A DNA stretch of 64,000 bases from Xinfangfangia pollutisoli (lineage in GTDB: Bacteria; Pseudomonadota; Alphaproteobacteria; Rhodobacterales; Rhodobacteraceae): contig NZ_JAICBZ010000009.1 of the NCBI RefSeq assembly GCF_020179405.1, forward strand, positions 1-64,000, written 5' to 3'. The notes beneath the pieces are model-generated. The model saw only the letters and a list, made by a program, of their open reading frames with translations. It was not told where the DNA came from and ran no database searches. How positions within the stretch are numbered: position 1 is the first letter of the stretch; every line of letters starts with the position of its first letter. The translations under genes and the position numbers were made by a program. This document shows, in pieces, positions 13,858 to 28,334 of the stretch.

Positions 13858-14799
13858 TTAGCCCACCCGCTTGGCAGGCGGACGGGCGCGCGTGGCGGCG
13901 GCCAGAGCCTTGGCCTGTGCCACGAACGAGGTCACCGCGCGGGCAAAGGCCGCCGGTTGTTCCCAATGCGGGAAATGCCCGGCCGCGTTGAGCACGCGCA
14001 ATTCGGTGTCGCGCTGGCGCACCGCCAGCAATTCCATCAGGTAGCGCGCATTCTCGAAGGGCGCGATGGGATCGTTGAAGCCCCAGACGATAAGCGTGGG
14101 GCAGGGCAGCCCCTCGGCATGGATGATCCGGTGCAGCGCCGCGCGCTGCGCGTTCCACTGGCCGACCTGCTGGCGCAGATACAGTTCTTCATCGGCCATG
14201 ACCGCGATCGCGGCGCGCGTCTTGTCCAGACCGGCGACAGCGGTTGCCTCATCCATCCAGGCGTCGGTGACGGCCAGATGCGACTGGCAGGCGCGTTCGT
14301 AATGCCAGCGCAGGCTGGCCGAGGACAGAAGCGGCAGCAAGGGATCCGACAGCACGATGCCGCGCCGGTCGGAGCCCGGGGTCAGCGAATTGGCCGAGAC
14401 CAGGGTGACGCTGGCCACAAGATCGGGATGCGCGCAGGCCAACTGGGCCGCGACAAAGGCACCCTCGTCATGGCCGACCAGGTGATAGGGGCCGCTGCCA
14501 AGCGATTGCAGGAAGGCCAGGGTATGGGCGACGCTGGCCGCATGGCCATAGCCCGCGGACGTGGCGGGATTGGCGGTGTGCCCCTGCCCAAGCCGGTCCA
14601 GCGCCACGGTATGGAACTTTGCCGCAAAGGCGCCGAAGACGCTGCCCCACATCAGCGAGGACGCCACCTCGGTCGGCGCACCCGCATGTCCGTTGTGCAG
14701 CAGCACGACCGTCTCGCCAGAGCCCGCGCTGTAGAAGCGGGTTTCGATCTCGTCCAGAACCGTTGTCCGGGCAAAGGATTGCATTGCTTCAAATCCCAT
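13858..14799 (-). CDS. Alpha/beta hydrolase with Asp nucleophile
   Basis: 313 aa from ATG 14799, which overlaps the previous hydrolase stop by 11 nt. Alpha/beta-hydrolase fold: V-V-L-L-H-N-G-H-A-G near residue 30 (oxyanion region, Asn where Gly is usual), nucleophile elbow G-H-D-E-G near 110, acidic residue in W-G-F-N-D-P near 240 and His in A-G-H-F-P-H-W near 283. Asp in the elbow is the pattern of epoxide hydrolases and haloalkane dehalogenases rather than esterases. It lies between another hydrolase and the transporter; substrate unknown. Confidence 0.87.
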   Translation of the reverse strand: MGFEAMQSFARTTVLDEIETRFYSAGSGETVVLLHNGHAGAPTEVASSLMWGSVFGAFAAKFHTVALDRLGQGHTANPATSAGYGHAASVAHTLAFLQSLGSGPYHLVGHDEGAFVAAQLACAHPDLVASVTLVSANSLTPGSDRRGIVLSDPLLPLLSSASLRWHYERACQSHLAVTDAWMDEATAVAGLDKTRAAIAVMADEELYLRQQVGQWNAQRAALHRIIHAEGLPCPTLIVWGFNDPIAPFENARYLMELLAVRQRDTELRVLNAAGHFPHWEQPAAFARAVTSFVAQAKALAAATRARPPAKRVG

Positions 14800-15679
14800 C
14801 GTCGGCCGCCTCAAGATGATTTCCAAGTACGCGCATGAAGGGTTCGAAGCGCTCGCGATAGGCCGAATGGCCGGATTGGTTCACCACATGCATCGAGACG
14901 CGGGGCTGATGCCGGGCGATCAGCGCGAACAGGTCATAGCCCATCTGGATGGGTGCCGTGGGGTCGTTGAAGGCCCAGATGATCTGCACGCGCCGCTTCA
15001 GCGGTTCATGCTTCAGACGCATGAACAGCTCTTCGCGCGCCTTCAGCAGGCCGGGAAGATAGTGCTTCACCCGATAGCCGCCAGGCCCCATGCGCTGGAT
15101 GGCGGCGCGGATTTTCGGCGTGGCAAGGATATCCAGCTTCTTCTGCGCCAGCTCGCGCGACAGGGTTTCGGGCGAGAAGTAGTAAAGATTGGTGGTGAAT
15201 TCCATCGCCTCGATGCTGCCGGGCGGATGGGGATTGCGCAGGTGGATGCCTTCGTTGCGCGCGCCGCCCGGCGCCACCGTGTTGCTGTCGCCGATCGTCA
15301 GCGAGGCGACAAGGTCGGGGCGCTCCAGCGTGGTGCGGGTGACGACATAGCCGCCCCGCGACTGTCCGACCAGGTGGTAGGGGCCGGCATTCATCACTTC
15401 CAGGAAGCGGATGAAATGCTTGACCGAGCCGTCCATCGTCCAGCCCTCGATATCGTCAAGGGGCGGGTTGTCGGTGTAGCCATGCCCGAGCCGGTCGACG
15501 GAAATCGCCCGGCGCGTCGGCGCGCAGGCTTCGACCAGCGGCAGGAAGTCGTCGGCGCTTGAGGCAGAGCTTGCATCGCCGATGGTGCCGCCATGGACAA
15601 AGACAACTGGCAGGCTTCCGTGACCGGCTTCGATATAGCGGGTGCGGATGCCATCGACGTCGACGAAGTGGGTCTGCAT
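14789..15679 (-). CDS. Alpha/beta hydrolase with Ser nucleophile
   Basis: 296 aa, first gene of the long minus-strand run. Oxyanion motif V-V-F-V-H-G-G-T near residue 25, nucleophile elbow G-Q-S-R-G-G near 105, F-N-D-P near 240 and catalytic His in Q-S-G-H-S. The pattern fits serine hydrolases such as C-C or ester hydrolases. It aligns by eye along its length with the next gene, which has Asp in place of Ser, so the pair look like diverged paralogues. Upstream is a 630-bp gap holding the likely operon promoter. Confidence 0.88.
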   Translation of the reverse strand: MQTHFVDVDGIRTRYIEAGHGSLPVVFVHGGTIGDASSASSADDFLPLVEACAPTRRAISVDRLGHGYTDNPPLDDIEGWTMDGSVKHFIRFLEVMNAGPYHLVGQSRGGYVVTRTTLERPDLVASLTIGDSNTVAPGGARNEGIHLRNPHPPGSIEAMEFTTNLYYFSPETLSRELAQKKLDILATPKIRAAIQRMGPGGYRVKHYLPGLLKAREELFMRLKHEPLKRRVQIIWAFNDPTAPIQMGYDLFALIARHQPRVSMHVVNQSGHSAYRERFEPFMRVLGNHLEAADDGI

Positions 15680-16309
15680 GGGGGCTCCTGAATGGTTTGT
15701 GCACGTTCTGTGACGTAGGATCGGTAGTCAAAGGAATTGATTCGATTAATTCATTCCTGTTTGGAATTTGCAGGCGATAACATGATGTTGATGGGGGATT
15801 CGTGGGGATTGGCGGTGTTCGACCGGGCATTTCCAGCGCCGTCCGGTTCCTGATCCGGGCGAGAAACCGGGGCGGGAAGGCGGCGCGGCACGATCTGCGC
15901 AACGGGTTACGCCTTTGGCGACCCTACGGCAGGCGGCGCAGGCGGTTGTTTGAACGGGCGCCCCCACCCTCCGGATGACGGAGAATTGCCCCCCCGATTC
16001 GGCGGTGAAGCCCGGATACGAAAGACGGGATCAGGGGGCCGAGGCGGGGCGGTTCAACGGCTCATCGCAGGGGCTGCGCAGGGCATCTGGCCGTGGCGGG
16101 ACGCAGCCATCACGCAGGGAAGCGCCGCGCGTTCCGAAGGCCCGATGCAGAGGCGCGCCGCGCCACGGGCAAAGCCAACCACGGACGTCTCGGTCCCCAG
16201 TCGCGGCAGAAGCTGCGCGGTACCGCCAACATTCCGAAAACGGCGACCCGCCGCTGCAGCCTGCGCGGGCACGAGGAAAAACCTCATGCATTCCAGTATC
16301 TTGGCGGGG
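15680..16309. other. Gap between the hydrolase operon and the satellite
   Basis: 630 bp. The first ~120 bp (15680-15800) are AT-richer and probably hold the operon promoter (AATTGATTCGATTAATTCATTCC near 15732-15754 is palindrome-like). The rest is GC-rich with open frames on several strands, none protein-like. It is the original downstream flank of tRNA-Glu before the satellite integrated. Confidence 0.4.
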
Positions 16310-16329
16310 AAAGTGGCAGCCCGTAGGGG
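16310..16329. repeat. attL core of the satellite
   Basis: 20 bp identical to 28256-28275. It duplicates the last 16 nt of tRNA-Glu plus 4 flanking bases and marks the left boundary of the integrated element. Confidence 0.9.
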
Positions 16330-16365
16330 GCTGCGGAAAGTCTGAAAAATCAACAGGTTAAGGCC

Positions 16366-16424
16366 GGTGGGACATTGGCGCTTTCCTGTAGGTTTCCAAG
16401 GTTTTCTAGGATTTTTGTCCCACC
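16366..16424. promoter_or_regulatory. Inverted pair of GGTGGGACA motifs, left end
   Basis: GGTGGGACA at 16366-16374 and its reverse complement at 16416-16424, 36 bp inside attL. The same motif pair occurs near attR (28178-28214). Symmetric placement at both ends is what integrase or excisionase arm-type binding sites show. Between them lies an AT-rich stretch. Confidence 0.55.
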
Positions 16425-16520
16425 ATTTCAGCGGCCTAGCAGACAGGTTGAACGCAAACCGCCGCCCCGAGTGCCATCGGGGCGGCGGCCTGAATCTGCA
16501 TACGCTTGAAGGGAGCGAAA

Positions 16521-18584
16521 ATGCACCACAATCATACAGGAATCCCGACCCCCGAACAAGCTGTTGCGGCGCTGGTCGGTGATGGAAACCCCAATCTTTC
16601 CTGCGCCTTGGGTCTTGCCAAGCGGGGCCTTCCGGTCTTCCCGGCCGGGCCGGACAAGCGGCCGCTGGTGAAGGACTGGCAGGCCCGCGCGACGGCCGAT
16701 CCGGGGGCAATCCGGCGCTGGTGGCGGCGCTGGCCCGATGCCATGCCCGCGCTGCCCATGGGCCGCCGATCCGGGCTGGCCGTGCTGGACGTGGACCGGA
16801 AGAACGGCAAGGACGGCATGGCCGCCCTGCGCAAGCTGGGGCACGATCCGGCCGCCCTGTCCCCCGTGACCATCGCCACGCCATCGGGCGGCCTGCACGC
16901 CTATTTTCGCTGGCCAGAGGGCATGGGCAACAGCCCGGCCGGGATGCCCGCTGGCGTGGACGTGCGGGCCGCTGGCGGTTACGTCATCGCGCCGGGGGCC
17001 AGAGGCCCCATGGGCCGTTATAGGGCCAAGGGCGACGATCTGGTGGACCTGCTGCTGGTCGGGCCGGAAATGCTGCCCGAGTGGCCCGAGGCCCTGCGCC
17101 CGCGCGCCAGATCGGCCGATGATGCGCCGCCAGCCGAGCCCGGCCAGATCGCCCTAGAGACGCTGCGCGCCGCGCTGCTGGCCGTTCCAAATGACGGATC
17201 GAACCCTGACTCCGACTCGCGCGACTGGTGGCTGACCATCGGCGCGGGCCTGCACTATGAAACGGGCGGATCGGCCGAAGGGCTGGACCTCTGGCTGGAC
17301 TGGTCGGCCCGCTGGCCCGGCCATGACCCGGAAGCCGCCGAAGCCGTGTGGCAGTCCTTCCGCCGCCGGGACGGCGCGCTGCGCACCGGGGCGACGATCC
17401 TTGCCGAAGCCGCGAAACACGGCTGGACCGATACGGGGCGAATCCTGTCGCTCTATGACGATCCCGACGACGATCTGGACGCCATGACGGCCGCGCTGCT
17501 GGGCTTTGACGACAAGCCCGCCGAACCGGCGGCCGGTGGCCTGACCTTCCTTTCCCCGGCCGACTGCACCACGGCCACGGCCCGGCGCTATGTCGTCAAG
17601 GGGCTGGTGGCCGCTGGCGACGTGGCCGCAATCGTCGGTGCGCCGGGCGTGGGCAAGTCGCTGATCGCCCCCCGGCTTGGCTATGCCGTGGCACAAGGCA
17701 GCCCCGCGTTCGGGCTGAAGGTCCGGCAAGGGGGCGTGATGTATGTCGCGGCCGAAGACGAGTCCGGGATGCGCGCCCGTGTCGCGGCACTGCGCGAGGA
17801 ATACGGCGATGCGCCCGACTTCGCTCTGGTCGGTGGCGTCACAAGCCTGTTCCCGGACGGCGACCACAAGGTATTGCGTGCGGCCGTGAAGGCCCGCCGC
17901 CCGGTGCTGATCGTCATTGACACGCTGGCCATGGCCTTCCCCGGCCTGCGCGAGAATGAGGCCGAATCCATGGGCCTTGTCGTGGCCGCCGCCCGTGCCC
18001 TGACCAAATGGGGCGCGGCCGTGGTGCTGGTGCATCACGATACAAAGGACGGGGCGCAGGGCCTGCCGCGTGGCCATTCCATCCTGAACGGCGCGCTGGA
18101 CATGAGCCTGCATCTGACCCGCGACGGCAACGTGGTGCGGGGCCGCCCGACCAAGAACAGGAACGGTTCGGCCGACGTTGATCTGGCCTTCACCATCGCC
18201 ACCCGAGTCTTGGGGGAGGATGAAGACGGGGACGAAATCCGCGCCGCCTTCGCCCGCGATCTGGAACCGGGCGACGTGGACGCCAAGCCCGCGCGCCTAT
18301 CACCATCGGCCAAGGCGGCGCTGGACATCTTCCATGAACTGGCCGGGGAAAGCGGGGCTGTCTCTGTGGAGGCATGGCGACAAGCCTGCATCGAATCCCC
18401 ACGGGTGAACGCTTCCGACAAACCCGACTCCCGGCGGGCTGCCTTCCGGCGGGCGTTCGAGATGCTGGCCCGATCAAATCGACTGATCGAATCCGGGGGC
18501 GAAATCCGCCGGGTGAATCCCCACGGGCGGATTGCGGACAGGTTTGACGATGCAGAGGGGGAAACAACCGATGGCAAACTGTAG
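16521..18584 (+). CDS. Replication protein: Prim-Pol primase-polymerase fused to RepA-like helicase
   Basis: 687 aa from ATG 16521 (GGAG 8 nt upstream). Domains: residues ~15-190 bifunctional primase/polymerase (L-D-V-D-R-K catalytic acidic pair near 90, P-S-G-G-L-H-A-Y-F near 120); ~205-290 PriCT-2-like domain (W-L-T-I-G-A-G-L-H-Y, D-L-W-L-D-W-S); ~350-560 RecA-like ATPase with Walker A G-A-P-G-V-G-K-S and Walker B V-L-I-V-I-D-T-L. Such proteins let satellites and plasmids prime and unwind their own origin. First gene of the element, followed by a repeat-rich stretch that may be its origin. Confidence 0.88.
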   Translation: MHHNHTGIPTPEQAVAALVGDGNPNLSCALGLAKRGLPVFPAGPDKRPLVKDWQARATADPGAIRRWWRRWPDAMPALPMGRRSGLAVLDVDRKNGKDGMAALRKLGHDPAALSPVTIATPSGGLHAYFRWPEGMGNSPAGMPAGVDVRAAGGYVIAPGARGPMGRYRAKGDDLVDLLLVGPEMLPEWPEALRPRARSADDAPPAEPGQIALETLRAALLAVPNDGSNPDSDSRDWWLTIGAGLHYETGGSAEGLDLWLDWSARWPGHDPEAAEAVWQSFRRRDGALRTGATILAEAAKHGWTDTGRILSLYDDPDDDLDAMTAALLGFDDKPAEPAAGGLTFLSPADCTTATARRYVVKGLVAAGDVAAIVGAPGVGKSLIAPRLGYAVAQGSPAFGLKVRQGGVMYVAAEDESGMRARVAALREEYGDAPDFALVGGVTSLFPDGDHKVLRAAVKARRPVLIVIDTLAMAFPGLRENEAESMGLVVAAARALTKWGAAVVLVHHDTKDGAQGLPRGHSILNGALDMSLHLTRDGNVVRGRPTKNRNGSADVDLAFTIATRVLGEDEDGDEIRAAFARDLEPGDVDAKPARLSPSAKAALDIFHELAGESGAVSVEAWRQACIESPRVNASDKPDSRRAAFRRAFEMLARSNRLIESGGEIRRVNPHGRIADRFDDAEGETTDGKL

Positions 18585-18589
18585 TCACC

Positions 18590-18710
18590 GGGCAACGCGA
18601 CAAGGCGCGACAGTCGCGCGACAATCGCGTCTTGTCGTGTCCGGCAAAGCGGCGGTTGGGCGCGACACGACACGACACCCCCCTATAGGGGTGTCGCGTG
18701 TCGCGTCCCC
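18590..18710. repeat. GCGACA-rich repeats with an imperfect inverted repeat, candidate replication origin
   Basis: Multiple GCGACA/CGACA units in both orientations from 18597 to 18705, ending in an imperfect hairpin centred on CCCTATAGGG (18681-18690) whose arms continue through CGACAC/GTGTCG. It lies directly after the replication gene in the 273-bp gap before the terminase genes. Iteron-like repeats beside a Prim-Pol/RepA gene suggest an origin; a hairpin regulating the packaging genes is the alternative. Confidence 0.5.
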
Positions 18711-18857
18711 GATGCACCAGTTTGATGGGGTTTCGGGGTGTTCTTGGGACAACCTACCATCGGTTGCGACGGGTCCTTCCCCATGGGGGCCGGTTGCGGG
18801 GGGCGCGGAGCCCCGACACTTCATCCCCCACAGAAAATTTTGAATCGGAAAACTGAT

Positions 18858-19406
18858 ATGGCCGCTGGTGACATTCCCCCCGACGTTCTCGATCTGCTGG
18901 GCTTTTCCCCCCTTGGGGACTCCCCCGTGGTGAAATCCCCCGACGCCGGGATTCCCGCAATCGTCACCCGTGGGGAACTGCGCGCGCTGCTGGGAGTCTC
19001 GGAAACCCGGTCCCGTGATCTGGCCGCCCGCGTCTGGGTGAAGGTCGGCCGCGACCGATACGACGCCCGCGCCAGCATCGCGGCGCATGTGGCCGACATG
19101 GGCATGGAAGCCAAGCGCAGCGCGACCCCGGAACTGGACGCGGAAAAGCTGCGGCTGGCGCGGGAACAGGCCGACAAACTGGCGCTGGCGAACGCCAAGG
19201 CGCGGGGCGATCTGCTGGACGCGGCCGACGTGGCGCGCGAGTGGGCATCTGTCCTGCGCGACGTTCGCGCCGCCGTGCTGGCCGCCCCGTCCCGGATCGG
19301 GTCGCGCCTGCCGCATCTGTCGGCCCATGACGTGGGCGAGATCGCCCGCGAACTGGCCGCTGCCCTGTCCGACCTTGCCGAAGGGAAAGCCGATGACCGC
19401 GATTGA
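18858..19406 (+). CDS. Terminase small subunit-like DNA-packaging protein (Nu1 type)
   Basis: 182 aa from ATG 18858. Residues ~38-85 form a HTH (V-T-R-G-E-L-R-A-L-L-G-V-S-E-T-R) like the DNA-binding domain of lambda Nu1. Then a long Ala/Arg/Glu coiled helix (~90-130) and a C-terminal helical part that would contact the large subunit. It recognises the packaging site on satellite DNA. Overlaps the large-subunit start by 14 nt. Confidence 0.75.
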   Translation: MAAGDIPPDVLDLLGFSPLGDSPVVKSPDAGIPAIVTRGELRALLGVSETRSRDLAARVWVKVGRDRYDARASIAAHVADMGMEAKRSATPELDAEKLRLAREQADKLALANAKARGDLLDAADVAREWASVLRDVRAAVLAAPSRIGSRLPHLSAHDVGEIARELAAALSDLAEGKADDRD

Positions 19407-21165
19407 CCGAGTCCGCCGCGATGCCCTGCGCGCGCTGATGCCCCCGCCCGTCCTGCCGCTGGCCGACTGGATCGAGTCCACGATCCATTTCCCGGCGACG
19501 GTTTCCGCCCTGCCGGGTCGGGTCCGCCTCTGGGCATATCAGCGGGGCATCTGCGAGGCCATTGACGATCCGGAAATTGAGCGGGTCACTGTGATCAAGT
19601 CGGCCCGGATCGGCTACACCAGCCTGTTGACCGGAGTCATCGCGTCCTATGTCGCCAACCAGCCCAGCCCGATCTTGGCCGTTCTGCCGACGCAAGACGA
19701 CTGCCGCGACTATTCGGTGGGGGACGTGGAAGGCACCTTTGACGCCAGCCCGGCGTTGCGCGGCCTGCTGGACGCGGAAGCCGACGAGTCCGGCCGGTCA
19801 ACCCTGCTGGCCCGCCGCTTCCCCGGTGGCAGCCTGAAATTTGTGGCCGCCAAGAGCCCCCGCAACTTGCGCCGACACAATGCCCGCGTGTTGCTGCTGG
19901 ACGAAATAGACGGATTCGAGATCGGGCAGGAAGGCGACCCGATCAAGCTGGCGGAAATGCGCACCTTGGCCTTTCGTGATCGGAAGATCATCGCCGGGTC
20001 CACCCCGATCTTTGACCATGGCCCCGTGTCGCGCCTCTATGCGGAATCTGACCAGCGGGTGTTCGAGGTTCCTTGTCCCGAGTGTGGCGACTTCCACGAA
20101 ATCCGCTGGTCCGAAATCCAGTGGCCCGACGGCCGACCCGAGGAAGCCGCATGGGCCTGTCCCGGCTGCGGCTGCATCATCCCCGAGCGGCACAAGGCCG
20201 CCATGGTCAGCCGGGGCCGCTGGCGGGCCACAGCGCCCCATGTGACGGGTCATGCGGGCTTTCGGATCAACGCGCTTGTGAGCCCCCACGCGAACGCCGC
20301 GTGGGGCAAGCTGGCGGCCGAGTTCATTCGGGCCAAGGACAACCCGGCCACGCTTCAGACCTTCATCAACCTGACCCTTGGCGAACCATGGCGCGAGACG
20401 CAGGACGACTTGGACGAACACGAACTGGCCGCGAAGCGCGAGCCTTTCGGCCTGCCGGATCGTCTGCCGCCTGAAGTGCTGATCGTGACCGCCGGAGTCG
20501 ATTGCCAAGACGACCGGCTGGAACTGGTCTTCACCGGCCATGGGAAGGGCGATGCCACCTTCATTCTTGCGCATAGCGTCATCTGGGGCGCGGTGGACGC
20601 GGAAACGACATGGCTGGAACTTGACGACGCCCTGCGCAGCGTCTGGAAACACCCGGCAGGCGGCGCGCTGCGCGTGGACGCGGCCGTGATCGACTCGGGC
20701 GACGGCGGCCACGCTGATCTTGTCCACGCCTTCACCCGGCCGCGCTTTGGGCGGCGCATCGTGTCGGGCAAGGGCGTGCCGGGTTTCGCGCGGCCGTTCA
20801 TCCAGAGGTCAGGGGCAAAGGGCGCACCGCTGTTCCTGATCGGGGTGGATGCGATCAAGGCCCAACTGTTCCAGCGGCTGGCGCGCGGGTCCGGCTTCCG
20901 CTTCAGCGCCGATCTAGAGCCCGTGTTCTTCGAGCAACTGACTTCAGAACGGCGCGTGGTGAAATACTACAAGGGCCAGCCCGTCCGCCGGTTCGAGCGC
21001 ATCCCCGGCAAGCGGGCAGAGGCGCTTGACGCCGTGGTCTATGCGCTGGCCGCCCGTGGGCTGATCGGGGCTGATCTGGACCGCCGCGAAACGGAAGTCG
21101 CCCAAGTGACAGCCCCAGCGAAAGCGGCTACCGTGATCCGGTCCAAGTGGTTGCAGGGGGGATAG
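19393..21165 (+). CDS. Phage terminase large subunit, lambda GpA family
   Basis: 590 aa from ATG 19393 (AAGGGAAA upstream). Packaging motor: N-terminal ATPase with K-S-A-R-I-G-Y-T-S (Walker A-like, near 63) and V-L-L-L-D-E-I-D (Walker B, near 165). A Cys-rich insert C-P-E-C-G...C-P-G-C-G (~225-265) and a C-terminal nuclease domain with G-V-D-C-Q-D-D-R near 365 and D-S-G-D-G-G near 435. Full length for the family, no disruption. It cuts and translocates DNA into the element's own procapsid. Confidence 0.93.
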   Translation: MTAIDRVRRDALRALMPPPVLPLADWIESTIHFPATVSALPGRVRLWAYQRGICEAIDDPEIERVTVIKSARIGYTSLLTGVIASYVANQPSPILAVLPTQDDCRDYSVGDVEGTFDASPALRGLLDAEADESGRSTLLARRFPGGSLKFVAAKSPRNLRRHNARVLLLDEIDGFEIGQEGDPIKLAEMRTLAFRDRKIIAGSTPIFDHGPVSRLYAESDQRVFEVPCPECGDFHEIRWSEIQWPDGRPEEAAWACPGCGCIIPERHKAAMVSRGRWRATAPHVTGHAGFRINALVSPHANAAWGKLAAEFIRAKDNPATLQTFINLTLGEPWRETQDDLDEHELAAKREPFGLPDRLPPEVLIVTAGVDCQDDRLELVFTGHGKGDATFILAHSVIWGAVDAETTWLELDDALRSVWKHPAGGALRVDAAVIDSGDGGHADLVHAFTRPRFGRRIVSGKGVPGFARPFIQRSGAKGAPLFLIGVDAIKAQLFQRLARGSGFRFSADLEPVFFEQLTSERRVVKYYKGQPVRRFERIPGKRAEALDAVVYALAARGLIGADLDRRETEVAQVTAPAKAATVIRSKWLQGG

Positions 21166-21166
21166 A

Positions 21167-22222
21167 ATGCCGACTCTGGGGCGGATCGAAGAAAAGCGGC
21201 TGCGAAATATCCCTCTCCAATATAGGGCCGATCACGAATTTTGCTTCCATATACATGATCTGATGGTTGGCCTTCTTGTGGAGATGGAGGCCAAAAGAAG
21301 CGGCATGGTCTCCTTCAAGATCGAAACCGAAGAAGACCTGAGCGCCCTTCAGTCGGGGGCACATATACTTGATTTTCTGAGTAGGACGGGCCGAGGGAAT
21401 CTAGAGAGGCGGGCTGTGGTCAATCACGTGACCGCAGCTTTGTTTTCCGACATGCTTCATTTCGTTTATGAGGGGTTGCTGGCGCTCGAAAAACGAAAAT
21501 TCTCGGTTAGCCTAAATCTACTTCGTAAGCCATTCAAGGAGAATATGTTAATTGCCGCTCTTGCCTGTGCGGATGAAGAAAAATTCTTCGAGAAGCTGAA
21601 GAGTGACGCTAAGAACTTGCTTAATAAAAAAGAACTTGATCCGGCAAGAATCATTCAAGTTATCGAGTCTGCGAAACAAAGGTGTAGGGGTTCTGCGTTC
21701 GCAAATTCCGATCAAATCTATTCTATCGCTTTTGATCGAAAAAATATTGATGGCCTTGCTCCGCTGTTCGACAAGGCGACTCATTTGGTAACTGAGAACC
21801 AGCAGATTGCCACCGAGGACTACAACCTAAATTTCATCTTCAAGAACCCCGAAGACAATGATATTTACTCGTCAATTTACCGGAAGCTGTCGGTTCTGCT
21901 TCTATTCTGCCATGTGATGCAGGTAGAGTTGGTTGGGCGGACGGGGTTGAAGAAGAAGGGCTATCTTGATTGGCTTCTTTTTACCGCTATCGGCTCGTAC
22001 GAGTCATTGTTTGCCGCTGGTCGCTCCAATACGGCAGCGATGATAAACAAGGAGTTCAAGCAATTCCTGAATTGTCCGGCTTGCGGCGATGATATTTCGA
22101 TTAGGAAGGCAGACCTTGCCAAATTCCTTATTTGCGAGATTGCGGATTGCAAGGCTTGTGGCACATCACACCACTTTCCCGTCGGCTGGCTTCTTTCTCG
22201 TATCGACCTGAATATTTCGTAG
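21167..22222 (+). CDS. AT-rich cargo gene of unknown function with C-terminal zinc ribbon
   Basis: 351 aa, starts 2 bp after terL. Base composition is clearly lower in GC than all neighbours, and rare-for-this-genome codons (AAA, ATT, TTA) are frequent: a recent import. Residues 1-290 look mainly helical and soluble, with a notable S-L-N-L-L-R-K-P-F-K-E-N-M-L-I stretch near 115-130. Four Cys in C303-x2-C306 and C328-x2-C331 (plus C323) form a probable zinc ribbon. No known domain recognised. It sits between terminase and portal, a place where satellites and prophages carry accessory genes, often anti-phage defence; that role is inference. Confidence 0.75.
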   Translation: MPTLGRIEEKRLRNIPLQYRADHEFCFHIHDLMVGLLVEMEAKRSGMVSFKIETEEDLSALQSGAHILDFLSRTGRGNLERRAVVNHVTAALFSDMLHFVYEGLLALEKRKFSVSLNLLRKPFKENMLIAALACADEEKFFEKLKSDAKNLLNKKELDPARIIQVIESAKQRCRGSAFANSDQIYSIAFDRKNIDGLAPLFDKATHLVTENQQIATEDYNLNFIFKNPEDNDIYSSIYRKLSVLLLFCHVMQVELVGRTGLKKKGYLDWLLFTAIGSYESLFAAGRSNTAAMINKEFKQFLNCPACGDDISIRKADLAKFLICEIADCKACGTSHHFPVGWLLSRIDLNIS

Positions 22223-22227
22223 ACGGG

Positions 22228-22425
22228 TCAAAGTCCAAATCGAGCCCGCAACTTCGCCAGCGCCGTTTCCCGCGCCTCTGGCGCGAGGTCGCGGGGCAGC
22301 TTGGCGGCGGCGGCCCGAAAGGCACGGCGGCGCTGACGATCTGACCGCGCGAAGGCGTTCGGGGATCGGTTATCGCGGCCGGGTCCGCCGCCCCCAGCGA
22401 GATGCCGGGCGTAGGGAAGAGTCAT
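22228..22425 (-). CDS. Small basic protein, opposite strand within the satellite
   Basis: 65 aa from ATG 22425 with AGGTGA 6 nt upstream. Arg/Ala-rich, helical C-terminus (A-L-A-K-L-R-A-R-F-G-L). Only minus-strand gene in the element, facing the end of the cargo gene. No family recognised; could be a small DNA-binding or regulatory protein. Confidence 0.45.
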   Translation of the reverse strand: MTLPYARHLAGGGGPGRDNRSPNAFARSDRQRRRAFRAAAAKLPRDLAPEARETALAKLRARFGL

Positions 22426-22560
22426 TGCGTCACCTTTGGGTAAAGTTGCCGGGGGCGGGGGAGATGAGTCCCGCCCCCGGCGGCCGCACAAGGAGGCCGG
22501 GGGACACCACTCGCCCCGGCGAAGAACCGCCGGGATCAACCAACCGGCAGCGGAATCAGT

Positions 22561-22597
22561 AATTACAGATTCTAGTTGCATCGTCAATTACGAATCA
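22561..22597. promoter_or_regulatory. Direct repeats upstream of the satellite regulator
   Basis: AATTACAGATTC (22561-22572) and AATTACGAATCA (22586-22597), 25 bp apart, in an AT-rich patch 32-68 bp before the regulator ATG. Spacing near two helical turns suggests an operator/promoter. A -35-like TTGCAT lies at 22576-22581; the -10 is unclear. Confidence 0.5.
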
Positions 22598-22628
22598 TGT
22601 AGGGTCGGCCCAGATGAAGGAGGCCGCC

Positions 22629-23177
22629 ATGACCCTTGCCACCCTGCGCGAGATGACCGACGCAATCACGACCGTTGAACAGCGGCCGGACACTGAACGG
22701 GTGTTCATGCAACTGAAGGGGGCAGCGCAGCGCGGCCTTCTGAAGCACAAGGACACTCACGGGCCGAAGGGGGCGATGCGCTTCCCGCTTGTTGAGGTCG
22801 CGCTTGCGCGTGTCCTGATGCGCGCGCTCGACAGCGGCATGTCCGGCGAAGACATGAAAGTCTTCGCAGACGCGCTTCGCGTAGAGGTGCGGCGTGCCCT
22901 TCCCGACGGGAAGCACGTCATCTTATCTTTGGACGAGGCCGTGCAGACGATCCGCAAAAAGCGGTGGACCCTCGAAATTGTCCAGTCGCGGGACGAGAAA
23001 GGGACGCAGGCCGCTACCATCCTCTGGCTGCCTAACGGCGTCCGCTTCGGAGAGCCTGACCCCATGGACCCCGACGTGTTCATTCCGGGGCGCGTGATTG
23101 AAGAGATACGGTTCATTCCGTTCACCGCTCTGGTGCGGCCGATCCTCGACCATCTGATTGCCAAGTCCGGGGCTTGA
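22629..23177 (+). CDS. Putative transcriptional regulator in the satellite head region
   Basis: 182 aa from ATG 22629, preceded by AAGGAGG. Residues ~20-90 resemble a MerR/phage-type DNA-binding region (G-A-A-Q-R-G-L-L-K-H..., then V-A-L-A-R-V-L-M-R-A-L-D-S-G-M). The C-terminal half is a beta-rich domain (T-L-E-I-V-Q-S, I-L-W-L-P-N-G). It has its own repeat-containing upstream region and ends 2 bp before the portal start, so it could control the head genes. Family assignment is weak. Confidence 0.55.
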   Translation: MTLATLREMTDAITTVEQRPDTERVFMQLKGAAQRGLLKHKDTHGPKGAMRFPLVEVALARVLMRALDSGMSGEDMKVFADALRVEVRRALPDGKHVILSLDEAVQTIRKKRWTLEIVQSRDEKGTQAATILWLPNGVRFGEPDPMDPDVFIPGRVIEEIRFIPFTALVRPILDHLIAKSGA

Positions 23178-23179
23178 CC

Positions 23180-24514
23180 ATGGGCCTGCTGGACCGCCTC
23201 TTTCGCCGCATCGACCGCCCCGCCCACGTCCGCCGATTCGACGGTGCTGCGGGTGGCCGTCGCGGTTTCGGCCTTGGCGGTTTCGGCCGGACGGGCGCGG
23301 AAACCATGGCGGCCGGGCCGACCTTGCGCGCCCGCGCCCGATACCTTGCCAACAATAACCCGTGGATTTCCCAAGCGGTTGCCAACTGGACCGGCGCTTT
23401 GATCGGCCCCGGAATTGAGCCGACGGCGGACCCGGCGGCCGTGGCCGCATACAACGCATGGGCGGACGTGGCCGACGCTGACGGGCGGACAGATGCGCGT
23501 GGCCTTCAGGCCGACGTGGCGCGGGCGCTGGTCGTGGACGGGGAATCATTCGTTCAGATTATCGACACGTCAGACGGCCCCCGCCTGCGCCTGATCCCGT
23601 CCGAACTGGTGGACGAGTCGATGACCCGCGAACTGCCCGGCGGCCGATTCATCGTGTCGGGCGTGGAGTTCAACGCCGATGGCACCCGTTCCCACTACCA
23701 CGTTCTGCCCGCCCGGCCGACCGACGTTTTCGCCACCACTGGCACGCCCGTTCGCATCCCCGCCGCTGAAATCCTGCACATTTTCAAGCCGCTGGGGCCG
23801 GGTCAGGTCCGGGGCGTGTCGTGGCTGGCCCCGGTCATCCTTCCGGCGGGCGAGTTCGATCAACTGATTGACGCGCTGCTGGTCGGCACCAAGGTCAGCG
23901 CAATGTTCGCCGGATTCGTGGTCAATCAGAACGCTGTCGGGGGCGACGATCCCTTTGACGGCGAGACGCAGCCCAGCCTTGAACCGGGGACTCTTCAGCG
24001 TCTTGCGGGTGGGTGGGACGTTAAATTCGCCACCCCGGCGCAGGCGCAACAGGTCGCGCCATTCATCCGCTTGAATCTTCAGATGCTGGCCGCCGGGCTG
24101 GGGCTTCCCGAGCATCTGCTATCGGGCGATCTGACAAACGCGAATTATTCCAGCCTGCGCGCGGGGCTGCTGCCGTTCCGCCAGCGCGTGGAGCAAATCC
24201 AGTATCACGTCCTTGTCCCGCAACTGCTGGGGCCGATCTGGCGCGAGGTCATCCGCTGGGCCGCCGCCGCTGGCGAACTGCCCGAGTTCGAGTCCGACCC
24301 GCGCCGCTTCCTGTCGGTGGAATGGCTTCCGCCGCGCCCGATGCAAGTCGATCCGCTGAAGGACGTGGAGGCCACGGTTGCCGAGATCAACGCGGGCCTT
24401 ACCAGCCGGAAAAAGGCCGTGGCCGAACGCGGCTGGGCGCTGGCCGATCTGGACTCGGAAATCGCCCTGGACTCGTTCCGGCCGCGCACCAAGCCTGAAG
24501 GGACTCCGACATGA
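23180..24514 (+). CDS. Phage portal protein, lambda family
   Basis: 444 aa from ATG 23180. Forms the dodecameric DNA entry ring of the capsid. Seen: basic N-terminus, A-R-Y-L-A-N-N-N-P-W-I-S-Q-A-V near 50, G-P-G-I-E-P near 75, L-R-L-I-P-S-E-L-V near 140, F-K-P-L-G-P-G-Q-V-R-G-V-S-W near 200 and N-Y-S-S-L-R-A-G near 315, all typical of lambda-type portals. Complete, slightly short for the family. Ends with a 4-nt overlap with the capsid gene. Confidence 0.92.
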   Translation: MGLLDRLFRRIDRPAHVRRFDGAAGGRRGFGLGGFGRTGAETMAAGPTLRARARYLANNNPWISQAVANWTGALIGPGIEPTADPAAVAAYNAWADVADADGRTDARGLQADVARALVVDGESFVQIIDTSDGPRLRLIPSELVDESMTRELPGGRFIVSGVEFNADGTRSHYHVLPARPTDVFATTGTPVRIPAAEILHIFKPLGPGQVRGVSWLAPVILPAGEFDQLIDALLVGTKVSAMFAGFVVNQNAVGGDDPFDGETQPSLEPGTLQRLAGGWDVKFATPAQAQQVAPFIRLNLQMLAAGLGLPEHLLSGDLTNANYSSLRAGLLPFRQRVEQIQYHVLVPQLLGPIWREVIRWAAAAGELPEFESDPRRFLSVEWLPPRPMQVDPLKDVEATVAEINAGLTSRKKAVAERGWALADLDSEIALDSFRPRTKPEGTPT

Positions 24515-26271
24515 TCCACATTCGCGCAGCCGAGTTCCGACCCGGCACCTATGACCCCGACGCGGGCACGGTGGAAGCCGTCGCTTCCACCTTCGCCCCG
24601 GTCAAGCGCCGCGATACGCGCGGCCCCTATCTGGAACGGCTGGACCCGGCCGGGCTGGACACGTCGGCCCTGATCGGCCTGCCGGTGCTGGACGGGCACC
24701 GCCAAGGCGGGGCGCGTGACGTGGTGGGCAGCATCGCCGCTGCCCGGATGGAAGACGGCCGCCTTGTCGTCACCATCCGCCGAACCAGCGCGCCCGACGC
24801 CGAACCGATCTGGGCACGGGTGGCCGACGGGACGCTGAAGGGCGTGAGCATTGGCTATGGCGTTCAGCAGTGGCGCGAGACGACCGAAGGCGGCCAGCGG
24901 GTCAGGACCGGCCGCCCGGTGATCCGGGAAGTGTCAATCGTGGCGATCCCGGCCGACCCGCAGGCAATCATCAGGCAAGAGGAAACGACCATGCCGAAGG
25001 ATACAACGACTCCCGAAACCGAAGACCGCGCCGCGCTGATCGCGCGTTGCCGGGCCGCGCATCCCGCCCTTGGCGACGAATGGGCGACCCGCATGGAAGA
25101 GGCGGGCGACGTGCTGACCGACGCGGAAGTGATCGCGGATGCCCGCGAAACCGCGCAGGCGGCCCGCCAGACCCGCACCGCGCCAGTCATCCGCACCGCC
25201 GCCCCGGCGGCCGATGACCCGGCCGTGATCCGCACCCGGCAAGCCGAGGCGCTGGCCTGCCGCATGATGGGCACGGCCCCGTCGGAAGCCGCCCGGCCGT
25301 TCATGGGCTACGGCCTTGCCGATCACGCCCGCGAGGCGCTGGCCGCTGCTGGCATCGCCACGCGGGGCCTTGGTGCCGAAGACCTGCTGACGCGCGCCAT
25401 GCACGGCACCAGCGACTTTCCGGCCCTGCTGACCGAGTCCGGCAACCGGACGCTGGCAAGCGCCTATCAGGCCGCCCAAAGCCCCCTGAAGGCCATCGCG
25501 CGCCAGCGGACGGCGAACGACTTCCGGGCGCTTTCCGTCCTGAAGCTGGGCACCTTCAGCGGGCTTCAGAAGGTCAGCGAACACGGCGAGGTCAAGGCCA
25601 TGACCACGGGCGAGGCCAAGGAAGGCTATGCGCTGGAAACCTTCGCTGGCACCTTCGCCCTGTCGCGCAAGGCGCTGGTCAATGATGACCTTGGGGCCTT
25701 CGGCCGCTGGGGCGAGATGATGGGCCGGGCCGCCGCCGAGACGGAAGCCGCGCAACTGCTGGCGCTGCTGACCCAATCCAGCGGGGCCGGGCCGATGATG
25801 GGCGAAGACGGCAAGCGCCTGTTCCATGCCGACCATGGAAACCTGTCCAGCCTTGCCGCCGCGCCGGACGTGGACACGCTTTCCGTTGCCCGGCAGGCGC
25901 TGCGCACGATGAAAGGGCTGGACGGCAAGACCCCGATCAACGTGGTTCCCCGCTTCCTGCTGGTCGGCCCGGCGCTGGAAACGGAAGCCGAAAAGCTGCT
26001 GGCCAGCATCTATGCGGCCACCACCGACGATGTGCAGCCGATCCGGCTCACTCTGCTGGTGGAACCGCGCCTGACCGGCAACGGCTGGTATGTCTTCGCA
26101 GACCCGGCGACGGCCCCGGTGCTGGAATACGCCTATCTGTCCAGCGCGCCGGGGCCGCAACTGTCCAGCCGCGACGGCTGGGACGTGCTGGGCCGCGAGT
26201 TCCGAGTCGTTCTCGACTTCGGTTGCGGGGCCACCGACTGGCGCGGCGCGTATCGCAATCCGGGGGCCTGA
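24511..26271 (+). CDS. Fused prohead protease and major capsid protein
   Basis: 586 aa. Residues ~1-160 are an HK97-type prohead protease (V-L-D-G-H near 63, V-S-I-G-Y near 115, E-V-S-I-V near 140, as in the family's His-Ser arrangement). Residues ~165-270 are charged and Ala-rich, like a scaffold/delta domain. Residues ~280-586 form a Mu gpT-like major capsid domain (F-H-A-D-H-G-N-L, C-terminal D-F-G-C-G-A-T-D-W-R-G). One chain thus supplies protease, scaffold and shell. ATGA overlap with portal. Confidence 0.88.
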   Translation: MIHIRAAEFRPGTYDPDAGTVEAVASTFAPVKRRDTRGPYLERLDPAGLDTSALIGLPVLDGHRQGGARDVVGSIAAARMEDGRLVVTIRRTSAPDAEPIWARVADGTLKGVSIGYGVQQWRETTEGGQRVRTGRPVIREVSIVAIPADPQAIIRQEETTMPKDTTTPETEDRAALIARCRAAHPALGDEWATRMEEAGDVLTDAEVIADARETAQAARQTRTAPVIRTAAPAADDPAVIRTRQAEALACRMMGTAPSEAARPFMGYGLADHAREALAAAGIATRGLGAEDLLTRAMHGTSDFPALLTESGNRTLASAYQAAQSPLKAIARQRTANDFRALSVLKLGTFSGLQKVSEHGEVKAMTTGEAKEGYALETFAGTFALSRKALVNDDLGAFGRWGEMMGRAAAETEAAQLLALLTQSSGAGPMMGEDGKRLFHADHGNLSSLAAAPDVDTLSVARQALRTMKGLDGKTPINVVPRFLLVGPALETEAEKLLASIYAATTDDVQPIRLTLLVEPRLTGNGWYVFADPATAPVLEYAYLSSAPGPQLSSRDGWDVLGREFRVVLDFGCGATDWRGAYRNPGA

Positions 26272-26273
26272 TC

Positions 26274-26495
26274 GTGGCAACGCTGGCCGACCTGATCCGC
26301 TTCCGCGATGACTTGCGCGCCGCCCGCTATTCCGGGGCGCGGGTCTTTCAGGACCAGAACGGGGAACGGATCGAATACCGATCCGACCGCGAACTGGCGG
26401 CGGCCATGGCGGCGCTGGAATCCGAAATCGCGGCCATGGCGGCCAAGCCCGCCAGCCGCATCCTTCCCAGAACATCGAGAGGACTCGACCGATGA
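26274..26495 (+). CDS. Head-tail joining protein, gpW-like
   Basis: 73 aa from GTG 26274. Pattern of lambda gpW: helix (L-A-D-L-I-R-F-R-D-D-L), a beta hairpin around G-E-R-I-E-Y-R-S and a second helix (E-L-A-A-A-M-A-A-L-E-S-E-I). gpW plugs the portal after packaging and makes the head competent to bind a tail. Its presence in an element without tail genes fits the use of helper tails. Overlaps the next gene by 4 nt. Confidence 0.75.
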   Translation: MATLADLIRFRDDLRAARYSGARVFQDQNGERIEYRSDRELAAAMAALESEIAAMAAKPASRILPRTSRGLDR

Positions 26496-26833
26496 AGAAC
26501 TATGTGCAGCGGGGCGACACGATCACGGTTGCGGCCCCGGCAACCACCACGGGCGGCACTGTCGTCACCATTGGCGAACTGGTCGGCATCGCGGCCGGTG
26601 ACGCGGCCACGGGCGAACCGCTGGACGTGGTGACGGTGGGCGTGTTCGATCTGCCCAAGGTCGGCACCGACGTTATCGCCGTGGGCGATCTGGTCTTTGC
26701 CGACGGCGACGGGCTGGTGACGGTGGAGGAAGACGACGGGGGCACCCCGACGCCGGTTGCCTTCACGCTGCTGGGCCTTGCCGTCACGGCCGCCGGATCG
26801 GGCGTTGCAAGCGTCCATGTGAAGATCGGCTGA
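26492..26833 (+). CDS. DUF2190-type capsid decoration protein
   Basis: 113 aa, beta-rich: starts M-K-N-Y-V-Q-R-G-D-T-I-T-V, then repeated Val/Gly/Asp-rich strands (T-V-V-T-I-G-E-L-V-G-I-A-A-G). Typical DUF2190 proteins, which resemble lambda gpD and stabilise mature shells. Acidic. Last head gene. Confidence 0.82.
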   Translation: MKNYVQRGDTITVAAPATTTGGTVVTIGELVGIAAGDAATGEPLDVVTVGVFDLPKVGTDVIAVGDLVFADGDGLVTVEEDDGGTPTPVAFTLLGLAVTAAGSGVASVHVKIG

Positions 26834-26834
26834 C

Positions 26835-27083
26835 ATGCAGACCGCGACCCGCCAGCATAGGGTCTTGCCGCCCCCGACCGCGCGACTCCTGTCGCGGGTT
26901 GAGGGGGCGGCCTATGCTGGCGTGTCGCCTTCCACCTTTGACCGCATGGTGGCCGACGGCATGATGCCCGGCCCCAAGCGGGTCTATGGCCGCGTCTTGT
27001 GGGACGTTCGGGCGCTGGACGCCGCAATTGATGCCTTGCCCGGTGGTGATGATTCCCCGCAAGCTGGGAACCCATGGGACTGA
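26835..27083 (+). CDS. AlpA/excisionase-like HTH protein
   Basis: 82 aa. Central winged-helix-like HTH (L-L-S-R-V-E-G-A-A-Y-A-G-V-S-P-S-T-F-D-R-M-V), then G-P-K-R-V-Y-G-R-V-L-W-D-V-R-A-L-D-A-A-I, the classic AlpA/Xis wing. In PICI-like elements such proteins activate or assist excision. Located between the head genes and int; its stop lies in a hairpin before int. Confidence 0.82.
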   Translation: MQTATRQHRVLPPPTARLLSRVEGAAYAGVSPSTFDRMVADGMMPGPKRVYGRVLWDVRALDAAIDALPGGDDSPQAGNPWD

Positions 27084-27091
27084 TCCCATGG
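27072..27091 (+). promoter_or_regulatory. Perfect hairpin across the alpA-like stop and the int ribosome-binding site
   Basis: 8-bp arms (CCATGGGA 27072-27079, TCCCATGG 27084-27091) with a 4-nt loop containing most of the TGA stop. The right arm covers the first G's of GGAG (27090-27093), the only Shine-Dalgarno before int ATG 27100. Ribosomes finishing the HTH gene would open it, coupling int translation to the HTH protein. Confidence 0.55.
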
Positions 27092-27099
27092 AGTGCAAC

Positions 27100-28170
27100 A
27101 TGAAAGTGAGAATCAAGTATGTGGTGGAGGATACCGACCGGCATGGAAACGTCCGCGTTTACCTGCGCAAAGACGGCCGGAAAGTCCGCCTGCGCGGGCC
27201 TTTGGGCTCGCCCGAGTTCTGGCGCGAGTATCACGCCGCGCTGAAACCGCCGCCCAAGGTCAGGGGCGAAAAGAAGACCATTCCCGGCACGATCCAGAAG
27301 GGCACCATGCGTTGGCTGGTGGCCCAATACACCGCATCGGGCATGTTCAAGCAACTAGGGGCCAAGACCCAGAAGGACCGGCGGGCAACGCTGGAACGCT
27401 TCTGTAACAACGTCCCCAAGGGCAGCACCGCGCCGGACGGCGAAAAGCCGTTCGACCAGCTTCAGGCCAAGCATATCCGGTTGCGGCGTGACGCGCTGGT
27501 GGCAACACCCGAGGCCGCGAACACCATGCTTAAGGCCATCAAGCAGGTGTTCAAGTTCGCCGTCCAGTATGAGCATCTGGACCGCAACCCTGCCGCCGAT
27601 GTGGAGCCGCTGAAGTCCAAGGGCGACGGCTATCATAGCTGGACGCTGGAAGAGATAGAGAAGTTCGAGTCGGTCCATCCCGTCGGCACCACCGCGCGGC
27701 TGGCCTTGGCTCTGGCGCTCTATACCGGCCAGCGGCGTTCCGATCTGGTGAAGTTCGGAAAGCAACACGTCCGGGACGGGTGGCTGGTCTTCACGCAATT
27801 CAAGGGGCGCGAGAACAAGCCTGTCCGGCTTGAACTTCCGATCATCCCGGAACTGCAACGCATCATTGACGCATCCCCGACGGGCGATCTGGCCTTCCTT
27901 GCGACGGCCTACGGCAAGCCCTTCACAGCGGCAGGATTCGGCAACCGGATGCGCGAATGGTGCGACAAGGCCAAACTGTCGGATTGCTCGACCCATGGTC
28001 TTCGGAAGGCCGCCGCCGCGCGTCTGGCGGAACTTGGCTGCACCGAATTTGAGATCATGGCTATCACCGGCCACCAGACCAGCAAGGAGGTCACACGCTA
28101 CACCAAGGCCGCATCGCAAAGGCTACGCGCGGAGTCCGCGCTGGCAAAGCTGACCGGGACCAGAAGCTGA
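27100..28170 (+). CDS. int: Tyrosine-type integrase
   Basis: 356 aa from ATG 27100 (GGAG 6 nt upstream; ATG 27088 is an in-frame alternative). N-terminal arm/core-binding domain to ~175; catalytic domain with Arg in Y-T-G-Q-R-R-S-D (~215), H-G-L-R-K (~305), T-G-H-Q (~328) and nucleophile Tyr in V-T-R-Y-T-K (~337). All catalytic residues are present. It ends 90 bp before tRNA-Glu and is oriented toward it, as usual for tRNA-integrating elements. Confidence 0.95.
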   Translation: MKVRIKYVVEDTDRHGNVRVYLRKDGRKVRLRGPLGSPEFWREYHAALKPPPKVRGEKKTIPGTIQKGTMRWLVAQYTASGMFKQLGAKTQKDRRATLERFCNNVPKGSTAPDGEKPFDQLQAKHIRLRRDALVATPEAANTMLKAIKQVFKFAVQYEHLDRNPAADVEPLKSKGDGYHSWTLEEIEKFESVHPVGTTARLALALALYTGQRRSDLVKFGKQHVRDGWLVFTQFKGRENKPVRLELPIIPELQRIIDASPTGDLAFLATAYGKPFTAAGFGNRMREWCDKAKLSDCSTHGLRKAAAARLAELGCTEFEIMAITGHQTSKEVTRYTKAASQRLRAESALAKLTGTRS

Positions 28171-28177
28171 ACAAAAG

Positions 28178-28214
28178 TGTCCCACTTTTGACCCCCGTGT
28201 GACACGGTGGGACA
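28178..28214. promoter_or_regulatory. Inverted pair of GGTGGGACA-type motifs, right end
   Basis: TGTCCCAC at 28178-28185 and GGTGGGACA at 28206-28214, 41 bp inside attR; the pair matches the left-end motifs at 16366-16424. The first copy overlaps a perfect CAAAAGTG/CACTTTTG inverted repeat (28172-28190) just after the int stop. Confidence 0.55.
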
Positions 28215-28255
28215 AAACCGAACGCTAGGTTGCTGATTTTGTTGGGGAAAAAATA

Positions 28256-28275
28256 AAAGTGGCAGCCCGTAGGGG
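28256..28275. repeat. attR core of the satellite
   Basis: 20 bp identical to 16310-16329; it covers the last 16 nt of tRNA-Glu, including its CCA, and 4 bases beyond. Integration leaves the tRNA intact here. Confidence 0.9.
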
Positions 28276-28334
28276 AGTCGAACCCCTCTTCCCAGGTTGA
28301 AAACCTGGTGTCCTAACCGATAGACGAACGGGCC
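28260..28334 (-). tRNA. tRNA-Glu (anticodon UUC)
   Basis: 75 nt including encoded CCA. Acceptor GGCCCGT pairs with ACGGGCT (one G-U); anticodon stem CAGGT/ACCTG with loop containing TTC; T arm GAGGGGTTCGACTCCCCT. Intact and functional-looking; integration target of the satellite. Confidence 0.95.

Follow-up and report, generated by a model that had tools for sequence, protein, structure and literature searches.

A tail-less, head-encoding element at a tRNA-Glu gene of Xinfangfangia pollutisoli is probably a phage satellite with relatives across the Alphaproteobacteria

The element and its genes

The DNA analyzed here, the window, is a stretch of 64,000 nucleotides from Xinfangfangia pollutisoli (Rhodobacteraceae; assembly GCF_020179405.1, contig NZ_JAICBZ010000009.1, positions 1 to 64,000), and it carries an 11.9-kb element at positions 16310-28275. 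The element is bounded by exact 20-bp direct repeats on the plus strand, attL (16310..16329) at its left end and attR (28256..28275) at its right. The original prediction, made from the letters alone, had named the locus a satellite resembling the capsid-forming phage-inducible chromosomal islands (cf-PICIs) and had placed an exact 20-bp att repeat at a tRNA-Glu gene. We confirm this placement: because the minus-strand tRNA-Glu(ttc) (UUC) gene, the integration target, spans 28260..28334, the right-hand repeat covers its 3' end. The repeat occurs only twice in the window, even when three mismatches are allowed, and 0 times in 100 shuffles, so that its occurrence by chance is not expected. The element thus combines an integrase with flanking att repeats at a specific site, the features by which an integrated satellite is recognized. 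The tRNA-Glu side of the site is conserved in 13/13 genomes of the genus.

Eleven genes lie on the plus strand of the element, with a primase/helicase gene first and an integrase gene, reading towards the tRNA, last. The 687-residue primase-helicase (16521..18584; Prim-Pol, PriCT_2, and AAA_25 by Pfam and PHROGs), whose open reading frame (ORF) opens at 16506, is followed by the terminase small subunit, TerS (18858..19406; phrog_57; start uncertain, 18738 or 18858), and the terminase large subunit, TerL (19393..21165; GpA ATPase and GpA nuclease). Next come two genes beyond those listed in the original prediction, an AT-rich cargo gene of 351 residues in the slot between terL and portal (21167..22222) and a 187-residue MerR-type regulator with a CvkR-like fold (22614..23177), whose start may be the ATG at 22629. 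The head genes then comprise a lambda-family portal (23180..24514; Phage_portal_2), a 586-residue S78 prohead protease fused to the major capsid protein (24511..26271; Peptidase_S78 and Phage_capsid_4, phrog_4523), a 73-residue gpW, or head-tail adaptor Ad1, placed after the capsid gene (26274..26495; phrog_2545, E 2.9e-10), and a head decoration protein (26492..26833; Phage_cement_2). An AlpA-like helix-turn-helix (HTH) protein, an excisionase or regulator (26835..27083), and the integrase (27100..28170; phrog_1) complete the series. A small divergent ORF on the minus strand adjoins the MerR-type regulator (22228..22587; true start uncertain); minus-strand ORFs are called at a similar position in many relatives, and this one matched no family in PHROGs or PADLOC.

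Ten of these proteins were scanned with both Pfam and PHROGs, and the integrase and the small minus-strand ORF with PHROGs only. The genes named beforehand (Prim-Pol/helicase, TerS, TerL, portal, protease-capsid, gpW, decoration protein, and integrase) were all recovered in this way, as was the AlpA-like HTH protein, which matched phrog_25900 and phrog_66 and reached Pfam HTH_17 only below the cut-off. None of the scanned proteins matched a tail or lysis family in Pfam or PHROGs. A promoter and terminator scan gave no signal above shuffles.

Relatives, gene order, and selection on the head genes

Using the capsid fusion as the query against 394 genomes of the same family, we obtained matches in 105 genomes; by manual count, full-length, one-piece matches lie at 49 places in 42 of the 394 genomes, the window included. 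We read 38 of the other 48 places, ten of them judged by layout only, and refer to types I, II, and III, labels coined in the present analysis. Most of the 38 relatives repeat the head and packaging block, and none of them shows a tail block. Their usual order is a primase or other replication module, terS, terL, a variable gap, portal, capsid, gpW, and decoration; most type I and II relatives also have a small HTH gene and an integrase gene next to a tRNA gene. Several of the ten type III loci lie near tRNA-Met, and type III loci mostly have a more distant TerL (≈36%) and a larger gap. Flanking repeats in 20 of the 38 delimit elements of 9.9-13.7 kb; several of these repeats are only 13-15 bp long and weak alone, yet they abut tRNA 3' ends.

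A class-wide profile search yielded at least 80 loci on genome contigs and another 80 on viral contigs. Because some of these loci come from the genomes of the family search, and at least one element is entered twice (L112 and L192), the locus counts are not independent. The hosts of the 80 genome loci are mainly Rhodobacterales (59), followed by Hyphomicrobiales (11), Sphingomonadales (3), Acetobacterales (2), and Caulobacterales, Rhodospirillales, and Hyphomonadales (1 each), with 2 unassigned. Repeats bound 46 of the 160 genome and viral loci, with a median size of 12,175 bp (range 10.2-13.2 kb), and 45 of these 46 entries sit at tRNA or tmRNA genes of 13 kinds. All 46 carry terL, portal, capsid, gpW, and decoration genes; by profiles, 44 have terS, 37 an integrase, 32 a primase, and 16 AlpA. 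Hosts of bounded relatives include the culture-collection strains Roseivivax lentus DSM 29430 (L101) and Aquimixticola soesokkakensis CECT 8620 (L108). Terminal repeats, a sign of circular or packaged DNA, were found in none of the 80 viral and 80 genome loci, several of which were cut from longer contigs.

A comparison with 398 genomes of the phylum gave 11 matches that begin at the capsid N terminus, and ten of these, including the window, lie within the class. The remaining one, in G792, was also the single locus read among the 23 genomes outside the class that gave a match; it is a prophage of the tailed type and has the tailed gene order. Among 11 other genomes of the genus, the best match to the window's portal is 41%, in a type III element of G365. 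Some loci depart from the usual layout. In Paracoccus aminovorans, L148 has exact 2.6-kb direct repeats 11.8 kb apart around the capsid region, reflecting either a duplication or tandem elements, and it was left out of the size count because its repeat is this 2.6-kb duplication. Modules are permuted or inverted in L109, L117, L140, L190, L195, L205, and L343, for example with head genes preceding the primase and terS, or with terL and terS inverted.

The original prediction held that the element lacks tail and lysis genes, and this claim extends to the families listed for its relatives. Type I and II relatives have 130 non-core proteins, of which 117 were scanned together with the window's 187-residue protein and nine with the cargo set; no tail family appears among the 25 most frequent of the 44 families found. 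Likewise, 45 of the 85 slot ORFs of at least 100 residues, plus the window's own, were scanned, with no tail family among the 25 listed of 46. Of the ORFs in the 46 bounded loci, 18 of at least 250 residues carry no label, and the ten of these that were scanned gave five primases or helicases, one integrase, one family of unknown function, and three without a match. As a positive control, a tailed prophage on contig C154 of the host genome matched major tail, tape measure, and tail fibre families.

The position of gpW differs between the two kinds of loci. It follows the capsid gene in 192/192 satellite-type loci with a gpW call (six loci have no call), as counted over the 38 family, 80 genome, and 80 viral loci, sets that overlap in genomes; the viral loci include many short contigs, insufficient to prove the absence of a tail. 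By comparison, gpW precedes the capsid gene in 19/19 tailed-type loci with a call (3 of 22 have none), these loci having been called from gene layout, with only C154 checked by profiles and some running off their contigs. Among 20 loci chosen as likely tailed, L261 turned out to be tail-less and was counted as capsid-only. The same head module as in the window occurs in four annotated tailed phages, RcMamaDuck, Paracoccus phage Psul1, Shewanella phage 1/44, and Microcystis phage yong2, which share TerS, TerL, gpW/connector, portal, and the protease-capsid fusion, their capsids being 32-37% identical in the aligned part. They differ in that the gpW/connector gene lies between terL and portal and tail or attachment genes stand a few genes past decoration, whereas the window has AlpA and the integrase in that position. 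This arrangement suggests that satellite heads would be finished up to gpW, with the next neck part and the tail coming from a helper. The original prediction had guessed from gene order that the element may define a separate lineage, and the sequence data support this guess: the gene set recurs across the Alphaproteobacteria, and the order is absent from all 19 tailed-type loci in which gpW was called. The capsid protease type was rejected as a marker of tail-less elements, as S78 and ClpP-like fusions both occur in tailed phages. A protease search matched 192 of 198 genomes; most of the matches were weak, as cellular ClpP would lead one to expect, and only two were taken further.

The ratio of nonsynonymous to synonymous substitution rates (dN/dS) for terL, portal, and capsid lies between 0.04 and 0.25 in the nine pairs computed. 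For the window and L033 it is 0.15 for portal and 0.25 for capsid, with no value for terL, and the eight other pairs give 0.04-0.19 for the three genes. Values for gpW and decoration reach 0.40, and those for the primase and integrase span 0.21-0.70, the high values coming from pairs where these genes look swapped. As judged by these ratios, the head genes are under purifying selection. In Zavarzinia marina (Rhodospirillales), a draft genome in which assembly contamination is possible, the backbone DNA of an element is 88-93% identical to that of eight Rhodobacterales loci and 76-85% identical to most other loci compared, and the match is broken between terL and portal. In the relative L035 (9038-11313), two presumably IS21-like genes, which are also seen in other places, interrupt the portal gene.

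The cargo slot and the regulator before the portal

The gap between terL and portal is a cargo slot whose genes are swapped. With the regulator included, its GC content falls below that of its own element in 32/32 loci with a gap, by 0.01-0.12, and the window's 351-residue gene has a GC content of 0.47 compared with 0.65 for the element. The slot encodes methyltransferases, Vsr, ribbon-helix-helix regulators, and restriction enzymes similar to BsuBI and SmaI; the restriction genes were placed in type III from ORF size, and the tallies name no members. An annotated Paracoccus plasmid copy (L337) has a cytosine methyltransferase, an HNH endonuclease, and a second methyltransferase in the slot, and the cargo of L049 (type I) matches the PADLOC candidate PDC-M36A. 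Nine other proteins scanned alongside it, including three of the window, match nothing in PADLOC. The 351-residue cargo matched no Pfam, PHROGs, or PADLOC family above threshold, with a sub-threshold zinc-ribbon match only, and neither the other 384 of 385 class genomes nor phages nor viral contigs yielded a relative. It has four weak plasmid relatives at 25-28% identity, one of them beside toxin-antitoxin genes, and its fold model is unusable, with a predicted local distance difference test (pLDDT) score of 37. The gene is possibly a defence gene.

The 187-residue protein before the portal yields a model with a pLDDT of 86, and Foldseek matches this model to CvkR (PDB 7xn2) at E 1.1e-3. Superposition on 7xn2 gives a VIA Z of 12.4 over 144 residues at 3.8 Å, with the next chain at Z 6.8. 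The modeled protein has the fold of a MerR winged helix followed by a CvkR C-terminal domain; the likeness is one of fold only, the sequences being just 12% identical. No match to the regulator was obtained in a viral structure library at E 0.001. Its profile abuts the portal in 13/28 type I and II loci, 43/79 genome-contig loci, and 27/76 viral loci, and in 0/10 type III and 0/21 tailed-type loci. Profile comparison gave no link between this MerR-type family and the gene preceding the capsid in the capsid-only elements and plasmids described below.

A head-making satellite, its rivals, and its reduced kin

We consider it highly probable that the element is an integrated head-making phage satellite that borrows its tail and carries its own regulators and a swappable cargo slot. 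Its ends, gene set, lack of recognizable tail genes, conservation, selection, host spread, and cargo swapping, as read in the sequence, all point this way; head size, helper use, the tail step, and the regulators' roles are conditional in the following scheme. The integrase would insert the element at the tRNA-Glu 3' end, the element's own primase/helicase would replicate it after induction, and TerS/TerL, portal, the protease-capsid fusion, and decoration would build and fill a small head that its own gpW would close. Because tail and lysis genes are missing, a co-resident or infecting tailed helper would give the next neck part, the tail, and lysis. The CvkR-fold MerR-type regulator and AlpA would probably control excision and the head operon, and the terL-portal gap would serve as the swap site for cargo, some of it defence genes. 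The original prediction had proposed searching the host for tailed prophages, and one is present on contig C154, with head genes 29-35% identical to those of the window; it is a possible helper. A search of the host genome for GpA terminases found only those of the window and of C154.

Several observations weigh against this account. A strict empty site was sought in the genomes of the genus and none was found, because the left flank (window 14700-16309) has no match in the other 12 genomes except a 29-bp match in one; for the same reason, this flank may itself be accessory DNA. Only some of the elements have the regulator next to the portal (13/28 of type I and II, 0/10 of type III), and small tail genes without a profile could escape detection. 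At least six relatives are visibly broken, so that some copies do decay: the L035 portal is interrupted, L045, L055, and L068 have no whole terL, the L049 terL lies in two frames, and the L058 terL and primase are cut, with a few other relatives running off contigs. The C154 prophage shares head genes only at the level given above, and its supply of tails is hypothetical.

The capsid trees, built by a quick method without bootstrap, also speak in part against the account. With rows added to a 99-row tree, support for the branch that there separates tail-less from tailed capsids is 14, and 65 of 68 tail-less rows lie on one side; the three that leave the group are L343, a Sphingomonas plasmid island, and a Synechococcus plasmid. 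In a 61-row tree, five tailed capsids join the tail-less side with support 99. For this set, the approximately unbiased test does not reject one tail-less clade (p 0.41, L343 included), and when L343 is removed the constrained tree outscores the free tree, so that the free search missed a better tree. A TerL tree, built in the same quick way, groups 54 tail-less rows with two tailed rows on long branches (support 82). Taken together, the capsid and TerL trees make one main tail-less lineage likely. A single origin of all tail-less elements, attractive on the 99-row tree, is weakened by the 61-row and enlarged sets.

The head-making satellite that we favor is close in design to the cf-PICIs. 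These are called widely distributed across Bacteria, and according to PMC10690885 they encode capsid, protease, portal, connectors, terminases, and HNH and rely on borrowed tails; PMC10803314 gives an average size of 14 kb and lists main hosts without the Alphaproteobacteria that host the present elements. Three radiations of their capsids are known, and the Escherichia coli EDL933 element is an example (PMC11389934). Like them, the window's element is an integrated island of similar size with its own TerS and TerL, portal, maturation protease, capsid, and head-tail connector and no tail genes, and it would need a helper only for tails; the earlier description of a cf-PICI-like satellite thus fits its anatomy, with its own head and packaging genes and no tail genes recognized. 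That it is a diverged true member of the known cf-PICI family, given the same module set and strategy as in the definition of PMC10690885, nevertheless seems improbable to us. The window's capsid, a Phage_capsid_4 domain fused to S78, matches PF25209, PF10124, and PF04586 only, up to E 0.1, and not PF05065, with which published cf-PICI capsids were collected according to PMC13230959; TerL is of the GpA type, and the portal is of the lambda family. No HNH family was matched by any scanned protein of the element, and HNH occurs as cargo in some relatives. Because two cf-PICI features, the PF05065 capsid and HNH, are absent, we regard these elements as a putative separate alphaproteobacterial lineage working like cf-PICIs, set apart from them by described features.

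Recent deletion of the tail and lysis genes from a prophage, leaving it defective, is a very improbable explanation, even though the head genes have homologs in tailed phages and prophages and some relatives are broken. The original prediction had named decayed head genes as grounds for this explanation, and the window's head ORFs are full length and evolve under purifying selection. The same gene set, size, and order recur across many genera and several orders, the gpW position is unseen in the 19 tailed-type loci with a call, and in the 99-row capsid tree a single branch splits 72 tail-less from 27 tailed rows (Shimodaira-Hasegawa-like approximate likelihood ratio test support 100). A non-mobile, domesticated head module, GTA-like (gene transfer agent) or used by the cell as a protein shell, is scarcely credible. 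In its favor, gene transfer agents are a known trait of the host family, and tail-less head genes could serve another purpose. Against it, the element encodes an integrase, a primase, and a terminase of its own and lies between att repeats, the other genus genomes searched contained no close copy, and its relatives occupy 13 kinds of tRNA or tmRNA genes in several orders.

Other satellites resemble the head-making element in part. The Vibrio satellite-plasmids cf-PISP and PISP are likewise tail-less; as described in PMC13230959, they are episomal, reported only from Vibrio, and built on PF05065 or PF03864 capsids, whereas the window's element is integrated and encodes both a portal and a TerL. 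The Streptomyces satellites MulchRoom and MiniFlayer also encode capsid and packaging functions and need a helper, as the present element would. According to PMC10690885, they differ in being without homology to other satellites and in having terminal-repeat genomes and no obvious replicase, and MiniFlayer carries its own short tail fibres.

The host genome holds a second tail-less element, on contig C113 (L054:9160-17982), which is 8.8 kb long and has 45-bp repeats at tRNA-Arg(cct). Its genes encode a replication initiator, probable Arc-like repressors, a ClpP-like head protease, a capsid, and an integrase, and profiles found no terminase, portal, or gpW. Seven similar capsid-only loci (L261 and L297-L302) have a protease and capsid and no portal or TerL; six of the seven lie beside a tRNA or tmRNA gene, and L297 has a TerS-profile match. 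One of them, L299, is a 9003-bp contig with a 123-bp terminal repeat and is therefore probably circular, at about 8.9 kb. The capsid-only design has a known parallel in the Vibrio PISP, which combine a MerR-like regulator with capsid, head protease, and small terminase (PMC13230959).

Related fusions occur on small plasmids. A Synechococcus elongatus plasmid (L336; NZ_CP006473.1, 7842 bp) carries a protease-capsid fusion beside a replication gene; this fusion is homologous over nearly its whole length (hhalign 99.9%), and the plasmid is possibly a satellite-plasmid in an organism used as a laboratory model. The Rhodovastum atsumiense plasmid RHOAph (L335; NZ_OW485609.1, 10,690 bp) has a protease-capsid fusion, ParA, a toxin-antitoxin pair, and a DUF3987 protein, and its annotation includes no terminase or portal.

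We give about even weight to the wider proposal that these elements form a long-separated alphaproteobacterial satellite lineage, independent of the cf-PICIs, with two grades of reduction and related small plasmids, including that of Synechococcus elongatus outside the class. If this is true, the first grade would keep head and packaging genes, as in the window, and the second little beyond protease and capsid, as on C113, so that elements of the second grade would assemble a shell of their own with the portal and terminase of a helper. We found no description of the present satellite family in the open-access literature, which omits most subscription journals; head-making satellites have been described from Enterobacteriaceae, several Firmicutes groups, Vibrio, and Streptomyces (PMC10803314, PMC13230959, and PMC10690885). 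Overall, a class-wide alphaproteobacterial family would, if our reading is true, be a further radiation of such satellites, built on a different head module, and it would bring with it a mapped cargo slot, cultured hosts, and a sharp genomic marker, the position of gpW downstream of the capsid gene.

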